Below are positions 22,041 through 33,491 of a stretch of DNA of 35,008 nt, piece by piece. Position numbers and translations under genes: made by a program. The notes under the pieces are model-generated. The model was not told where the DNA came from and did no database searches. It saw only the letters and a program-made list of their open reading frames with translations. This DNA is from Sulfitobacter sp. HI0040 (lineage in GTDB: Bacteria; Pseudomonadota; Alphaproteobacteria; Rhodobacterales; Rhodobacteraceae), in assembly GCF_001634885.1 (NCBI RefSeq), contig NZ_LWEX01000571.1, positions 1-35,008 of the forward strand, in the 5' to 3' direction. The number at the start of each line of letters is the position of its first letter. The stretch's first letter is position 1.

Positions 22041-25000
22041 CTATTCCAGTTCCACCAACAGGTCCTTGGCGTCGATCTGGGTGCCGGGCTGGACGTGTAC
22101 GGCCTTGATCACGGCGGCGCGTTCGGCGTGGATGCCCGTTTCCATCTTCATCGCTTCGATGGTCAGCAGCAGATCGCCCTTGGCGACCTTGGCCCCGGCC
22201 ACCGCACCGACGGAGGCGACGACACCGGGCATGGGCGCCCCCACGTGGTTTTCATTGCCTGCCTCGGCCTTGGGGCGCTGGGCCGCGCTGGCCTTGACCA
22301 CCCGGTCGGCGACCCGGATCACCCGGGGCTGGCCGTTGAGTTCGAAGAAGACCTTCACCTCACCGTCTTCATTGGTGTCGCTGGTGGCCTGCATGCGGAT
22401 TTCCAGCGTCTTGCCGGGGTCGATCTCGGCCGAGATCTCCTCGCCCGGTTCCATGCCGTAGAAGAATGTGCGTGTGGGCAGCGTCCGCACCGGGCCGTAT
22501 TGCCGGTGCCGACCCATGTAATCGAGGAAGACCTTGGGATACATCAGGTATCCGCAAAGGTCGTCGTCATCGATCCGCATGCCGTCAAGCTCTTCGGACA
22601 ATTCCTTGCGCGTCGCTTCCAGATCCACCGGGGCGAGGTGCTTGCCCGGGCGCTCCGTCATCGGTTCCTCGCCTTTCAGCACTTTCTTGACGATGCGGTC
22701 CGGGAAGCCGCCGGGGGGCTGGCCCAGATTGCCGCGCATCATGTCCACGACGGAATCGGGGAAGGAAACATCGACCTCCGGGTCCTCCACCTGCGCGCGG
22801 GTCAGGCCCTGGCTCACCATCATCAGGGCCATGTCCCCCACCACCTTGGACGAGGGCGTGACCTTCACGATGTCGCCGAACATCTGGTTCACATCCGCAT
22901 AGGTCCGCGCCACTTCGGGCCAGCGGTCATCCAGACCCATGGAGGCCGCTTGTGCCTTGAGGTTGGTGAACTGGCCGCCGGGCATCTCGTGCAGATAGAC
23001 CTCGGACGAAGGCGCCTGCATCCCGGTCTCGAATGCGGCGTAGTGCTTGCGCACCTCTTCCCAGTAATCCGAGATTTCGCGCACCGCGGGCATGCTTAGG
23101 CCGGTATCCCGGTCGGTATGGCGCAGCGCCTCCACCACCGAGCCGAGCGTCGCCTGGGAGGTATTTCCCGAAAACGCGTCCATCGCGCAATCCACCGCGT
23201 CGACCCCGGCCTCGGAGGCGGCAAGGATCGTCGCGCAGGCGATGCCCGCCGTGTCATGGGTGTGGAAATGGATGGGCAGGCCGACCTCTGACTTGAGCGC
23301 CTTGACCAGCGCGCGGGCCTGCGCGGGCTTCAGCAGCCCTGCCATGTCCTTTAGCCCCAGAACATGGGCCCCCGCGTCGCGCAACTCCTTGCCCATGGCG
23401 ACGTAGTACTTCAGGTCATACTTGGCCCGGTCCGGGTCGAAGATATCGCCGGTGTAGCAAATCGTGCCTTCGCAGACCTTGTTCGCCTCCTGCACCGCGT
23501 CCATCGCGACGCGCATGTTCTCCACCCAGTTGAGACTGTCGAAAACGCGGAAGACGTCCACCCCGGTTTCCGCCGCCGTGGCGACGAACTTCTGCACCAC
23601 GTTGTCGGGATAGTTTGTGTAGCCGACGCCGTTGGAGGCGCGCAGCAGCATCTGGGTCATCAGGTTCGGCATCGCCGCGCGCAGGTCGCGCAGCCTTTGC
23701 CAGGGGCATTCCTGCAGGAAACGATAGGCCACATCGAAAGTGGCGCCGCCCCAGCATTCGACGGAGAAAAGCTGCGGCAGGTTGGCGGAATAGGCCGGTG
23801 CCACCTTGATCATGTCGATGGAGCGCATCCGCGTCGCCAGAAGGGACTGGTGCCCGTCACGCATCGTGGTATCGGTGATCAGCAACTGGCGCTGCTGGCT
23901 CATCCAGTCCGCGACCGCCTGCGGGCCTTTCTGCTCAAGCAGGTTGCGGGTGCCCATCTGCGGTTCTGCCCGCTTTGCCGGCGGGCGCGGATCCTTCAGA
24001 TGTGCCGGGGGCCGGGGGTGGCCCTTGGTTTCGGGATGCCCGTTCACCGTAATGTCGGCGATGTAATTCAATACCTTGGTCGCCCGGTCGCGCCGCTTGG
24101 TGAACTGGAACAGCTCCGGCGTCTGGTCGATGAACTTGGTGTGGTATTCGTCGTTCAGGAAGGTGGGGTGTTTCAGCAGGTTCTCGACAAAGGCGATATT
24201 GGTGGAAACACCGCGCACGCGGAATTCGCGCAGCGCCCGGTCCATCCGCGCGATGGCCATCTCCGGCGTGGGGGCCTTCGCCGTCACCTTCGTGAGCAGG
24301 CTGTCGTAATAGCGCGTGATCACCCCGCCCGCGTAGGCGGTCCCCCCGTCGAGCCGGATGCCCATGCCGGTGGCGGAGCGATAGGCGGTGATGCGGCCAT
24401 AATCGGGGATGAAATTGTTCTGCGGATCCTCGGTGGTAACCCGGGTCTGGAGCGCGTGGCCATTCAGCGTGATCTGGGACTGGTTTTCCTTGCCCGTCGC
24501 CTCCGCCAGGGTCTTGCCTTCGGCGATGAGGATCTGCGCGCGCACGATGTCGATGCCCGTGACCTCTTCGGTGACGGTATGTTCGACCTGCACGCGCGGG
24601 TTCACTTCGATGAAGTAGAATTTCTCATCCGCCATATCCATCAGGAATTCGACGGTACCCGCGCATTCGTAATCCACATGCGCGCAGATCCGGCGGCCCA
24701 GCTCGCAAAGCTCATCCCGCTGAGCCTGCGTGAGATAGGGCGCGGGTGCGCGTTCGACGACCTTCTGGTTGCGCCGCTGGACCGAGCAGTCGCGTTCGAA
24801 AAGGTGATAGATCCCGCCGTGCTTGTCGCCGAGGATCTGCACCTCCACGTGCCGCGCCTTGAGGATCATTTTTTCCAGGTAGCCTTCACCGTTGCCAAAG
24901 GCCGCCTCCGCCTCGCGCCGGCCCTCGCGGACCTTTTCCTTGAGTTCGGAGGCCTTCATGATGGGCCGCATCCCGCGCCCGCCGCCGCCCCAGGACGCCT

Positions 25001-25481
25001 TGAGCATCAGGGGATAGCCCACCTCTTCGGCCTGGCGGGCGATTTCGTCCATGTCGTCGCCCAGCACTTCGGTCGCGGGAATGACGGGCACGCCCGCCTC
25101 GACGGCGACGCGCCGCGCACTGGCCTTGTCCCCCAGCGCGCGCATGGTTTCCGCGCGCGGACCGATGAACGCGATGCCGTTGTTTTCGCAGGCATCGACG
25201 AATTCGGGGTTCTCGGACAGCAGGCCATAGCCCGGGTGTATCGCGTCGGCGCCGGAGGCTTTGGCCACGCGGATCATCTCGTCAATGCTGAGGTAGGCCG
25301 CCACCGGGCCCAGCCCTTCGCCGATACGATAGGCTTCGTCCGCCTTGAAGCGGTGCAGCCCCAGCTTGTCTTCTTCGGCATAGACCGCGACCGTCTTCTT
25401 GCCCATCTCATTGGCGGCGCGCATCACGCGGATCGCGATTTCGCCGCGGTTGGCGATGAGGATTTTGCGGAATTCGGTCAT
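22041..25481 (-). CDS. pyc: Pyruvate carboxylase
   Basis: Single-chain biotin enzyme making oxaloacetate from pyruvate, bicarbonate and ATP (anaplerosis). 1146 residues, the normal full length. The biotin carboxylase half (about 1-460) starts KILIANRGEIAIRVMRAANEMG and has the ATP-grasp glycine loop KASWGGGGRGMR and the EVNPRVQVEHTVTE block. The carboxyltransferase domain (about 535-800) has TTMRDGHQSLLATRMR, LFSVECWGGATFDVA, GLKDMAGLL and HFHTHDTAG. The PYC/OADA domain follows, then the C-terminal biotinyl domain with EAMKMETG, biotin on Lys1112. AAGGGA precedes the start. It stands 145 bp from the dehydrogenase gene upstream. Confidence 0.98.
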   Translation of the reverse strand: MTEFRKILIANRGEIAIRVMRAANEMGKKTVAVYAEEDKLGLHRFKADEAYRIGEGLGPVAAYLSIDEMIRVAKASGADAIHPGYGLLSENPEFVDACENNGIAFIGPRAETMRALGDKASARRVAVEAGVPVIPATEVLGDDMDEIARQAEEVGYPLMLKASWGGGGRGMRPIMKASELKEKVREGRREAEAAFGNGEGYLEKMILKARHVEVQILGDKHGGIYHLFERDCSVQRRNQKVVERAPAPYLTQAQRDELCELGRRICAHVDYECAGTVEFLMDMADEKFYFIEVNPRVQVEHTVTEEVTGIDIVRAQILIAEGKTLAEATGKENQSQITLNGHALQTRVTTEDPQNNFIPDYGRITAYRSATGMGIRLDGGTAYAGGVITRYYDSLLTKVTAKAPTPEMAIARMDRALREFRVRGVSTNIAFVENLLKHPTFLNDEYHTKFIDQTPELFQFTKRRDRATKVLNYIADITVNGHPETKGHPRPPAHLKDPRPPAKRAEPQMGTRNLLEQKGPQAVADWMSQQRQLLITDTTMRDGHQSLLATRMRSIDMIKVAPAYSANLPQLFSVECWGGATFDVAYRFLQECPWQRLRDLRAAMPNLMTQMLLRASNGVGYTNYPDNVVQKFVATAAETGVDVFRVFDSLNWVENMRVAMDAVQEANKVCEGTICYTGDIFDPDRAKYDLKYYVAMGKELRDAGAHVLGLKDMAGLLKPAQARALVKALKSEVGLPIHFHTHDTAGIACATILAASEAGVDAVDCAMDAFSGNTSQATLGSVVEALRHTDRDTGLSMPAVREISDYWEEVRKHYAAFETGMQAPSSEVYLHEMPGGQFTNLKAQAASMGLDDRWPEVARTYADVNQMFGDIVKVTPSSKVVGDMALMMVSQGLTRAQVEDPEVDVSFPDSVVDMMRGNLGQPPGGFPDRIVKKVLKGEEPMTERPGKHLAPVDLEATRKELSEELDGMRIDDDDLCGYLMYPKVFLDYMGRHRQYGPVRTLPTRTFFYGMEPGEEISAEIDPGKTLEIRMQATSDTNEDGEVKVFFELNGQPRVIRVADRVVKASAAQRPKAEAGNENHVGAPMPGVVASVGAVAGAKVAKGDLLLTIEAMKMETGIHAERAAVIKAVHVQPGTQIDAKDLLVELE

Positions 25482-25626
25482 TTGGATCGTCCCTTGGATT
25501 AACGTAGCGGCAGTCTACGGATGCTGCGATGCAGCGCAATGCCTGCTTGGCTGTTTTCTAGCCCATAAGTTTGCTGATCTGCGCCTGCAAAGACAGTTTT
25601 TTTGATCCTTGGGCGCCGGTTTTCGT

Positions 25627-29489: not shown

Positions 29490-29933
29490 ATGGCATTCTT
29501 GTTGCTTCAACTCATTTACGTCAGCAGTGCGTATGGCCCCGTGAAAAGCGATGACCTTTCCCAGATTCTCGGCCAGTCGCGCAAAAATAACGAAAAGGAC
29601 GACATTACCGGGCTGCTCGTCTTTGACGACGGGCTGTTCTTTCAGGTTCTCGAAGGACCCGAAGACGCCGTGAAGCGCTGCTTCAACCGGATCGCAAAGG
29701 ATGAAAGGCATGGCAGCATCGCCCTTTGCATGGAAAGCCACGTGGAAGCCCGCGCTTTTCCGAACTGGTCAATGGGGTTCAAGCGGCCCGAGGAGCTGGG
29801 CGAAGCGAGCCTTTCCGCCGTTCATTCAATTGCCGAGCTTCAGGAACGTCTGGGCAAGGACCTTGGGACGGATCCGGCGGTGGCCGAACTGACCCGCACA
29901 ATTCTGGGTATCACTGGCCGCGTGGCCGCCTGA
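29490..29933 (+). CDS. BLUF-domain blue-light photoreceptor
   Basis: 147 residues. Residues about 5-98 form a BLUF (blue light using FAD) domain. Tyr10, Asn34, Gln52, Trp93 and Met95 have the same spacing as Tyr21, Asn45, Gln63, Trp104 and Met106 of AppA, so the flavin hydrogen-bond switch is intact. Other marks: LIYVSSAYG, DDITGLLVFDDGLFFQVLEGP, FPNWSMGF. A short C-terminal helical tail of about 45 residues has no output domain, so signalling goes through a partner protein. The ATG lies directly on a GAAGAAGG ribosome site; the TTG at 29499, nine bases past that site, is the better-spaced start and would remove three residues. It lies next to the DUF1127 / sRNA locus. Confidence 0.93.
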   Translation: MAFLLLQLIYVSSAYGPVKSDDLSQILGQSRKNNEKDDITGLLVFDDGLFFQVLEGPEDAVKRCFNRIAKDERHGSIALCMESHVEARAFPNWSMGFKRPEELGEASLSAVHSIAELQERLGKDLGTDPAVAELTRTILGITGRVAA

Positions 29934-29979: not shown

Positions 29980-30023
29980 TGAAATAAAAAAGACGGCGAT
30001 GCCAGGGAGGAGGCACCGCCGTC
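29980..30023 (-). terminator. Intrinsic terminator of the DUF1127-sRNA transcript
   Basis: The last cuckoo hairpin (GACGGCGGTGCC / GGCATCGCCGTC, 12 positions with one mismatch) is followed immediately on the minus strand by TTTTTTATTTC, a good U-tract. The hairpin thus serves both as sRNA and as rho-independent terminator. Confidence 0.85.
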
Positions 30024-30145
30024 TCTTTCTGCGAACCGGGTCATCGGGGAGGACGTGCCCGGTTCGGGTCGGGACCGCATCATCAGGGAGGAGGAAAGGT
30101 GATGCAGCCCCCTACAGACCCGCGCCGGGGAGGCGGCGCAGGTCC
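29980..30145 (-). ncRNA. Array of four CcsR-like (cuckoo) small RNAs
   Basis: Four consecutive stem-loops on the minus strand directly after the DUF1127 gene, each exposing a C/U-rich loop: 30117-30144 (GACCTGCGCC stem, loop GCCTCCCC), 30077-30105 (loop TTTCCTCCTCCCT), 30032-30066 (9-bp stem CGAACCGGG, loop with TCCTCCCC), and 29992-30023 (12-bp stem with one mismatch, loop TCCTCCCT). In Rhodobacter sphaeroides the CcsR1-4 RNAs share the CCUCCUCCC loop motif and lie behind a DUF1127 gene of the same size, cotranscribed and processed under singlet-oxygen and other stress. The stems here differ in sequence while the loops are conserved, which is strong evidence for RNA function. The motif resembles the anti-Shine-Dalgarno sequence. 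Orientation is inferred from the gene and the terminator. Confidence 0.85.
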
Positions 30146-30158
30146 GATTCAGTAATCC

Positions 30159-30374
30159 TTACAGAGCGTTGCGGCTCGACTCGATCGCGATGCGACGGAT
30201 TTCGGAGCGGCTGATGCCCAGATCGTTCAACTCGCGGTTCGACAGTTCGCTCAGCTCGGCGAAGGTCTGACGGAACATGCGGTTCTGACGACGGCGGGTG
30301 GCCAGGGCATCGAAGAACGTGCTTACGCGGGCCATGAAGGAAGAAGAGTTGGATGCGGTATTGATATAAGCCAT
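30159..30374 (-). CDS. Small DUF1127 protein, CcaF1-like
   Basis: 71 residues, basic. The C-terminal half carries the DUF1127 (YjiS-like) signature FAELSELSNRELNDLGISRSEIRRIA; the N-terminal half is MAYINTASNSSSFMARVSTF. In R. sphaeroides the 71-residue DUF1127 protein CcaF1 (RSP_6037) is encoded just before CcsR1-4 and has been described as an RNA-binding protein that affects sRNA maturation and turnover. The size, motif and downstream array are the same here, so orthology is a fair inference. The start at 30374 has AAAGAGG ahead of it; the longer open frame to 30542 has no family similarity. Confidence 0.9.
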   Translation of the reverse strand: MAYINTASNSSSFMARVSTFFDALATRRRQNRMFRQTFAELSELSNRELNDLGISRSEIRRIAIESSRNAL

Positions 30375-30599
30375 TCGGCGCCTCTTTCGGTTTGTACTGC
30401 GTTTCTGTTGACGCTTACTTAGGTGTTTGCTGCAGCCGCACAACAGGCAGTTCGGCAGGGCCGATATGCATTTTCTGCATAGGAAATCGGGCGGCAAGCA
30501 TATGAAAACAATCAGGGTAACGCTAACGCCGCAATGCGGCATAAGCGCGTGGGTTTTTACAGATTCGGCGTCTCGGTTCGGGTAGGGAGGGGAAAGGAA

Positions 30600-30670
30600 G
30601 GCGACGACATCAGGGAGGAGGAAGGATGTCGCCGCCAGTCACAGGCCGATCCGGGAGGAGGATGGATCGG
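30600..30670 (-). ncRNA. Second cuckoo RNA pair, upstream of the DUF1127 gene
   Basis: Two more stem-loops with the full CCTCCTCCC loop on the minus strand: 30646-30670 (CCGATCC stem, 7 bp, loop ATCCTCCTCCC) and 30600-30636 (GGCGGCGACATC / GATGTCGTCGCC, 12 positions with one mismatch, loop CTTCCTCCTCCCT). They sit about 225-300 bp ahead of the DUF1127 start, so they either form a separate sRNA transcript or the 5' leader of that gene. The loop is identical to that of the downstream array while the stems are unrelated, arguing for function. Only a poor U-tract (TTCCTTT) follows. Confidence 0.78.
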
Positions 30671-30720
30671 ACTGATCTTTTCCGGAGCAGGCTGTTCCTG
30701 CTCTGATAGTGATAATGGCC

Positions 30721-33040: not shown

Positions 33041-33188
33041 CGCCTGCAACAGTGATCTACATATAGTGTATTCTTAAAATTTTATAACAAATAGTGCCGT
33101 TGTTTTCGCCCATATTTTGCCCTATTCGTTAATAAAGCCCCTGTGCAGAACCTGTTTTGCCCTATCCCCGCTCAGATATCGGTAGACG

Positions 33189-33219
33189 CCCATGAATTCC
33201 CATGGCATCCATAGTCCAT
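33189..33219 (-). promoter_or_regulatory. Second, degenerate set of TGGG-type repeats
   Basis: On the minus strand ATGGG occurs twice at a 10-bp interval (CCCAT at 33189-33193 and 33199-33203 on the plus strand), followed by two ATGG at 9- and 7-bp intervals. It may be an additional, weaker MraZ site in the opposite orientation. Confidence 0.3.
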
Positions 33220-33229
33220 CAGATGAGAA

Positions 33230-33436
33230 CGGGACACGGGGCACCAAACGACCCCACAGACCAATAAAACTCTAGCAGGTTCATACAGGCACCTCGCTTT
33301 CATCAGACCAGAAGATCCGGCGCGCGAGCGGCAACATCCCCCCAGGTGGCGCGTGCGATCGGACTTACCCGCAAGCTGCGGGACAAAGGCGGCGGGTTGA
33401 TCAGTGGCAGCAGATCAACCCGCCGTTTTTCATTTT
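33230..33436 (+). ncRNA. UpsM-like leader RNA of the dcw cluster (5' end not defined)
   Basis: A strong intrinsic terminator lies 61 bp ahead of mraZ with no gene in front of it, so transcripts from the upstream promoter must mostly end as a short RNA. In R. sphaeroides UpsM is exactly this: an abundant sRNA of about 200 nt produced by premature termination in the mraZ 5' UTR, with read-through giving the dcw mRNA. The 3' end here is set by the terminator; the 5' end is only estimated from the UpsM length. A second hairpin CCCGCA-AGC-TGCGGG lies at 33368-33382. Confidence 0.6.
33390..33436 (+). terminator. Strong intrinsic terminator in the mraZ leader
   Basis: GGCGGGTTGATC (33391-33402) and GATCAACCCGCC (33413-33424) form a perfect 12-bp stem with a 10-nt loop, extendable by one C-G pair, followed by TTTTTCATTTT. 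It lies 55-100 bp before the mraZ start on the same strand, so it acts as an attenuator. Confidence 0.85.
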
Positions 33437-33491
33437 CGGACCTGGGGAACGCACAAAGCCCGATTGTAACGGGCAAAGGGAACAGCCGAAC

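Follow-up and report, generated by a model that had tools for sequence, protein, structure and literature searches.

The closest described counterpart of the locus analysed here is the CcaF1 (RSP_6037)/CcsR1-4 locus of R. sphaeroides, where, as in our case, four CcsR units and then a terminator come after a 71-aa DUF1127 gene, and the available text of the same paper associates cuckoo/CcsR RNAs with a short DUF1127 gene (PMC10253847). The RpoHI/II-type promoter of the R. sphaeroides CIN1 cuckoo locus has putative, imperfect counterparts in the present one. In rhizobia, ar14/NfeR1 (alpha-r14) has three hairpins whose CCUCCUCCC loops are identical and whose stems diverge. The NfeR1 promoter, unlike the probable RpoH-type promoter of our locus, is of the sigma-70 kind, with LsrB and NtrC binding to it (PMC10746234, available in part). 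A further system of relevance is the PhaR (AniA) regulon, for which excerpts of PMC12542648 give the R. sphaeroides PhaR site as CTGCNNNGCAG and name an sRNA, MmgR, repressed by PhaR in S. meliloti. The present locus likewise combines a CTGCNNNGCAG site with putative small RNAs; in contrast to the regulon as published, its control by PhaR is a prediction.

The locus belongs to a kind that is already known, and by Rfam it is a sub-threshold relative. It lies in the window, by which we mean the whole analysed stretch of 35,008 nucleotides, from a bacterium that is probably marine. Its assignment to the CcaF1/CcsR type (cuckoo, CIN1) is supported by a DUF1127 domain, CCUCCUCCC hairpins with covarying stems, Rfam matches below threshold and a Mrp/ApbC neighbour. 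The short DUF1127 gene expected of a CIN1 locus is present, its 71-aa product matching PF06568 at 49.4 bits against a cut-off of 23.3 in a Pfam profile search. Four cuckoo hairpins follow the gene and two precede it, and in the last hairpin of each array the stem covaries and the loop is kept. The preliminary description, made from the sequence alone, had proposed four stem-loops after a 71-aa DUF1127 gene, with unrelated stems, a common C/U loop and a terminator after the last one. All four were located at 30146-29986 on the minus strand (Table 1); their stems differ, CCUCC(UCC)C-type loops occur in all of them, and hairpin 4, which runs into the T-run TTTTTTATTT, is a cuckoo hairpin doubling as terminator.

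Table 1. Features of the cuckoo locus and of related sites, in window coordinates
Feature	Position	Strand	Basis or remark
Palindrome CTGCATAGCAG, upstream of P1	30768-30758	-	Matches the published R. sphaeroides PhaR site CTGCNNNGCAG
TTGTGC-N4-GCAGCA box with -35 (TTG) of P1, array 1	30740-30725	-	Exact in 21/21 genus loci
Putative -12 CCATTAT of P1, RpoH type, imperfect	30718-30712	-	Position from 30 aligned family loci
Array 1 hairpin 1, loop AUCCUCCUCCC	30670-30646	-	Motif/stem scan
Array 1 hairpin 2, loop CUUCCUCCUCCCU	30636-30600	-	Folding, scan, covariation
Degenerate palindrome TGCATATCGGC, upstream of P2	30470-30460	-	Genus alignment
TTGTGC-N4-GCAGCA box with -35 of P2, DUF1127 promoter	30443-30428	-	Motif search
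Putative -12 CTAAGTA of P2, imperfect	30422-30416	-	Alignment of family loci
DUF1127 gene, CcaF1-like, 71 aa	30374-30159 including stop	-	ORF and Pfam PF06568
Array 2 hairpin 1, loop CCUCCC	30146-30115	-	Folding and motif/stem scan
Array 2 hairpin 2, loop UUUCCUCCUCCCU	30111-30071	-	Folding and motif/stem scan
Array 2 hairpin 3, loop around UCCUCCCC	30066-30032	-	Folding
Array 2 hairpin 4, loop UCCUCCCU, into T-run TTTTTTATTT	30029-29986	-	Folding, scan, covariation
Palindrome CTGCGATGCAG, PhaR-type, perfect	25524-25534	.	43 bp upstream of pyruvate carboxylase gene
Pyruvate carboxylase gene (pyc)	22041-25481	-	

Three of the four hairpins downstream of the DUF1127 gene (array 2), each folded alone, were better than 200 of 200 dinucleotide shuffles; hairpin 4 reached a z of -8.5 against 200 such shuffles, and hairpin 3 was equalled by 3 of 200. 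The 141-nt segment 29978-30118, which holds hairpins 2-4, had a z of -7.9 with none of 200 shuffles as good. A motif-plus-stem scan returned seven CU-loop stems window-wide, five of them at the cuckoo locus including two upstream, and overlooked hairpin 3 of array 2 owing to its bulged stem. When 40 genomes, the window's own included, were queried with the DUF1127 protein, 25 matched; the genus alignment takes the best-scoring locus from each of 21 of the 24 genus genomes (G004, G005 and G006 are absent). Over 3.2 kb, a Sulfitobacter litoralis locus (L099) shares 95.6% identity with one genus locus (L044), so that the genus is probably Sulfitobacter as GTDB defines it. Compensatory changes among relatives, a test set beforehand, are present in the last hairpin of array 2: across the 21 genus loci (20 distinct rows), 98.9% of cells are paired, 9 of 14 pairs have both sides changed, and the covariation score, computed for this last hairpin, is 0.500 against 0.225 when shuffled. 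The good intrinsic-terminator shape of the last hairpin is what plain tandem terminators would give, and chance GC-rich stems might be invoked as well; with a covarying stem around a kept loop and a family-wide association with a promoter element, we consider such an origin highly improbable.

The Rfam models place both arrays near ar14 and CcsR1, at scores below those required for membership. A window-wide scan at gathering score gave no match. The covariance-model search that the preliminary description had suggested did find ar14 (RF02344) on array 2 (29987-30117; 51.4 bits, E 2.9e-8) and on array 1 (30580-30680, minus strand; 46.7 bits), against a cut-off of 58.8, and CcsR1 (RF02791) on array 1 (30596-30677, minus strand; 44.0 bits, E 2.8e-9) and on array 2 (30069-30150; 29.7 bits), against a cut-off of 65.3; the matches were thus obtained, but both families stayed under their gathering scores. 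Unrelated Rfam families also match weakly (Scr3202, E 0.008; BjrC80, E 0.009). The rhizobial loci L123 and L167 score 76-110 with ar14. Five other loci, L034, L035, L043, L106 (Rhodobacter capsulatus) and L147, had no ar14 match at the cut-off when searched, so that a low ar14 score is usual here. Compared with the three hairpins of ar14/NfeR1, array 1 has two, and its ar14 score is below gathering. Hairpin number varies elsewhere too: 12 cuckoo hairpins lie within 900 nt of DUF1127 in L147 (Maritimibacter) and 13 in L167 (Nitratireductor).

Orthology to RSP_6037 is suggested by relatives rather than by the R. sphaeroides locus. All 21 genus loci have a Mrp/ApbC match, scored as presence in the fetched stretch and not as adjacency locus by locus, and so do 13 of the 80 named loci; twelve of these 13 are L099-L107, L112, L115 and L147, and Rhodobacter capsulatus is among the 13. 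A BLUF blue-light sensor gene (29490-29933, plus strand; PF04940, 109 bits) converges on the array 2 terminator. It was considered as part of the unit and set aside, there being no match to it in the fetched stretches of 20 other genus and 80 named loci. The genes mraZ and rsmH lie 3 kb from the cuckoo locus and are preceded by an intergenic leader (33050-33491). The R. sphaeroides sRNA UpsM derives from the leader of the mraZ/rsmH cluster (PMC8625941, in its available part), and the gathering-score Rfam scan gave no UpsM-like match in the leader of the window.

A second cuckoo array, absent from the preliminary description, lies upstream of the DUF1127 gene at 30670-30600, on the same strand and some 225 nt before it. 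Its first hairpin is weak by itself (z -0.6; 49 of 200 shuffles fold equally well), and its second has a z of -6.3 against 200 dinucleotide shuffles. Array 1 was detected in all 21 aligned genus loci, with the hairpin counter calling one hairpin only in 12 of them, and it is also found at a contig end in G005, outside the aligned set (L240). In its last hairpin, the ten outer pairs are formed in 100% of cells, and three show change in both partners. Of five covariation measures, four are higher than in almost every shuffle; the exception is the number of pair types (7 against 7.8 shuffled). The alignment has 14 distinct rows of 21. Compared with the available description of R. sphaeroides CIN1, the present locus has a second, upstream array with its own putative promoter, and a PhaR-type palindrome and a box at its promoters. 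An upstream array at a DUF1127 locus was not found in the available portions of the cuckoo/CcsR literature; the founding papers may mention one.

The position of array 1 would also suit hairpins that belong to the DUF1127 transcript itself, as a leader or attenuator and nothing else, with no separate RNA. Besides the shared strand and the distance to the gene, the lack of a clear T-run (at least five T) after array 1 in the window would agree with a leader, as would the exact second box between array 1 and DUF1127 being confined to 5 of 21 genus loci. However, array 1 ends in such a T-run in 16 of the 21, the window is one of those with an exact second box before DUF1127, and elsewhere in the genome an array of two hairpins with this box stands on its own (locus C, below), which makes a leader-only role unlikely in our view. 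Two-sided arrays in Roseibium (L117, L127, L133, L136 and L154) were examined as the same layout and rejected; they look like tandem duplicates, because the upstream array trails another DUF1127 gene (by eye) in several of them. These tandem units suggest, without proof, that array 1 in the genus may be an orphaned duplicate.

The two putative promoters, P1 of array 1 and P2 of the DUF1127 gene, share a box that probably forms the -35 side of an RpoH-type promoter. The 21-locus alignment shows strong conservation ahead of array 1, in a block with the sequence tGCtGCATrGCAGCAtTGC, then aTTGTGCa...GCAGCA. In 28 of 30 family loci, ATTGTGCA...GCAGCA is followed by a CTATNTT-like sequence 21-22 nt from the TTG start, so that TTG and TAT-like elements stand at a fixed spacing; the corresponding CCATTAT and CTAAGTA of the window are imperfect. 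Such spacing fits RpoHI/RpoHII promoters, which have TTG at -35 and TAT at -12 (PMC10673084, in part). The earlier proposal of an orthologous stress locus stands as regards the CcaF1/CcsR type, and its stress role is supported only indirectly, through the putative RpoHI/II-type TTG/TAT promoter. The genome has five exact copies of TTGTGC-N4-GCAGCA, three of which belong to cuckoo promoters; if a single mismatch is tolerated, 39 sites compare with 27 for the reversed pattern. The box was ruled out as a PhaR site in its own right by its 4-base rather than 3-base spacing. At the position of the degenerate palindrome upstream of P2, some relatives (L043-L046) have CTGCATAGCAG.

The array 1 promoter is a composite, in which CTGCNNNGCAG is followed by TTGTGC-N4-GCAGCA over the RpoH-type -35, and this composite is tied to cuckoo loci among the 30 places that were read. 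A search that used no RNA or gene reference covered 198 genomes of the family, which represent 197 genera, and found CTGCN3GCAG-N8..30-TTGTGCN4GCAGCA (CTGCNNNGCAG-N8..30-TTGTGCNNNNGCAGCA) 101 times in 93 of them and the reversed pattern in none; the other 105 lack the exact element. Of the 101 places, 30 were read, and two of the other 71 are loci A and C of the window's genome. At least two cuckoo hairpins lie within 900 nt downstream in 29 of the 30, and a DUF1127-like small ORF (motif test) accompanies 26. The thirtieth locus (L267) has no called hairpins, yet two TCCTCCC stretches and a DUF1127-like ORF are present. The composite signature finds cuckoo loci without an RNA model, including an array without a DUF1127 gene (locus C).

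Beside the locus of the window (A), the genome contains two further cuckoo loci. Locus B (G000 C416:23393-24051; L034), near a contig end, carries a DUF1127 gene (PF06568, 39.6 bits) together with another small ORF, DUF1127-like by eye and without a significant Pfam match; two palindromes precede them and three cuckoo-type loops follow, one of which the scanner called as a hairpin. Locus C (G000 C368:11247-11378; L035, L235) is a free-standing two-hairpin array with box, palindrome and T-run terminator, and no DUF1127 gene was seen adjoining it. A third DUF1127 gene (C597) has neither array nor palindrome. A perfect palindrome lies within 300 nt upstream in all three cuckoo loci, counted from the first hairpin in A and C and from the DUF1127 gene in B. 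Given the density of such sites across the genome, the chance of one site per 300 nt is 0.010, and that of three in three ~1e-6, a figure computed after the motif had been noticed on these same loci and ignoring any intergenic bias. The site is also present in four of four locus B relatives (L059, L065, L230 and L254). It is absent from the locus C relative L253 and from all five genus DUF1127 loci without an array, which have at most one cuckoo-type hairpin.

PhaR is the most likely reader of this palindrome, on evidence from sequence that favours it without proving it. At the array 1 promoter, 30758-30768 matches the PhaR-type operator CTGCNNNGCAG, and 19 of the 21 genus loci have CTGCN3GCAG no more than 250 nt before array 1. 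The genome of the window has phaR (PF05233) and 140 CTGCNNNGCAG sites against 51 reversed; one adjoins phaP, with a gene resembling phaC by eye on its other side, and a site of this type is also found near phaR. A perfect PhaR-type palindrome precedes pyc as well (Table 1), and in S. meliloti Pyc is one of the proteins whose levels rise in the absence of PhaR, according to the available text of PMC12542648. The window has a third perfect CTGCN3GCAG at 1903-1913. Another perfect palindrome (G000 C9:52357-52367; L067) is flanked by a divergent 4Fe-4S protein gene and, by eye, a formate dehydrogenase accessory ORF, a possible link to C1 metabolism.

Beyond the genus, the palindrome is often degenerate. 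Among 51 named loci with cuckoo hairpins, many of which are rhizobial, 4 have CTGCN3GCAG in the preceding 300 nt. Relaxing the motif to TGCN3GCA raises the count to 30 of these 51, against 6 of 23 loci without cuckoo hairpins and 4 of 51 in a control region; YGCRNYGCR gives 30 of 51, 7 of 23 and 12 of 51, respectively. In these counts, 5 of 79 named loci were dropped as too short or off-register, L141, L174 and L178 were kept despite another gene offset and so have misplaced windows, and related species are non-independent. The composite element occurs in 92 of 190 phaR-bearing genomes and in 1 of 8 without phaR (Fisher p 0.069), the lone genome with the element and without phaR being 84% complete.

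The palindrome and box may instead be read by another regulator, or be fixed parts of an extended RpoH-type promoter, in which case the cuckoo locus would be the same and PHB would have no role in it. The overlap of the box with the -35, its 4-base spacing, the weak co-occurrence of element and phaR, and the binding of LsrB and NtrC at the promoter of the S. meliloti alpha-r14 sRNA NfeR1 would all suit this explanation. Against it, the palindrome is the exact published PhaR site and recurs beside phaP and pyc in the same genome, and the palindromes of locus B occur without a box. We regard a reader other than PhaR, or none, as a real possibility that we nonetheless lean against.

In S. meliloti, SMc02051 is raised without PhaR and has predicted PhaR sites (PMC12542648, in part), and it adjoins the sRNA candidate C14/smrC14 (PMC2780559, PMC2573895, both in part). 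SMc02051 may or may not be a DUF1127 protein, and smrC14 may or may not be NfeR1, and we did not count them as proof of PhaR control. Among the best literature matches listed, no paper links PhaR to CcsR, CcaF1 or a cuckoo RNA, and a term search of the available text of PMC12542648 returned DUF1127 and NfeR1 zero times and no cuckoo RNA by name. A family-wide PhaR-type palindrome in cuckoo promoters was likewise not found in the accessible parts of the literature; the founding papers may mention one.

By sequence, the loops carry CCUCCUCCC, an anti-Shine-Dalgarno sequence complementary to GGGAGGAGG, and the earlier suggestion that they compete for Shine-Dalgarno sites is plausible. Genome-wide, the pattern GGGAGGAG-N3..10-ATG has 37 sites, compared with 5 for its reverse. 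Three of these 37 lie antisense to cuckoo loops, and among the 30 sites read, 12 stand before ORFs shorter than 60 aa. A domain scan of ten products, chosen among 15 with a length of 120 aa or more, gave three DctP solute receptors, one ABC permease and one FadL-type porin. The DctP and permease products are in line with NfeR1, most of whose candidate targets encode ABC transport systems (PMC10746234, in part). The 9-mer CCTCCTCCC alone is uninformative, as its 65 genome occurrences compare with 57 reversed. Paired loops, CCTCCTCCC-N22..48-CCTCCTCCC, number 27 in 24 genus genomes against 1 reversed.

The same loops could also turn the arrays into a sponge for the DUF1127 protein, Hfq or another C/U-binding protein, with no pairing between loop and mRNA. 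CcsR RNAs are reported to interact with or depend on Hfq (PMC8307010, PMC7866481), CcaF1 is an RNA-binding protein that influences CcsR levels (PMC10253847), all in the available portions of these papers, and a kept loop on drifting stems is compatible with protein binding. However, excerpts of PMC8307010 report flhR mRNA as a target of CcsR1-4, and the loop complements strong ribosome-binding sites in this genome in the above excess over the reversed pattern, which renders an exclusive sponge quite unlikely.

On balance, and with confidence only somewhat better than even, we interpret the locus as an RpoH-driven cuckoo stress sRNA locus gated by the reader of the palindrome, most likely PhaR. 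It would form two transcription units, with P1 yielding a free-standing RNA of two cuckoo hairpins and P2 a DUF1127 mRNA with a four-hairpin 3' tail. RNase E, aided by the DUF1127 protein, may cut this tail into small RNAs, as in R. sphaeroides, where RNase E cleavage is aided by CcaF1 (PMC8625941, PMC10253847, in part). Heat or singlet oxygen would switch on both promoters through RpoHI/II-type sigma factors, and PhaR on CTGCNNNGCAG beside the -35 would repress P1, and P2 more weakly, until PHB granules titrate PhaR away and lift the repression. Output would then require stress and carbon surplus together, and the loops would mask GGGAGGAGG ribosome-binding sites, some of them in solute-uptake genes.

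A broader proposal, to which we give slightly less than even chances, is that PhaR directly controls the cuckoo/CcsR RNAs, and the DUF1127 partner that goes with them, throughout the Rhodobacteraceae, with RpoH-type sigma factors and the release of a PHB sensor forming an AND gate that would shut nutrient uptake only in stressed, carbon-replete cells. CcsR/cuckoo RNAs have been reported in stress, in C1 metabolism and in the control of pyruvate dehydrogenase, and the reason why stress RNAs should steer central carbon was not found in the available portions of this literature (PMC8625941, PMC8307010). If the proposal is true, anti-Shine-Dalgarno RNAs would couple the stress response to carbon reserves. 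Since a PhaR-type site forms part of the signature, which occurs in 93 of the 198 genomes of the family, whether a carbon-storage sensor sets cuckoo RNA levels becomes a testable question.
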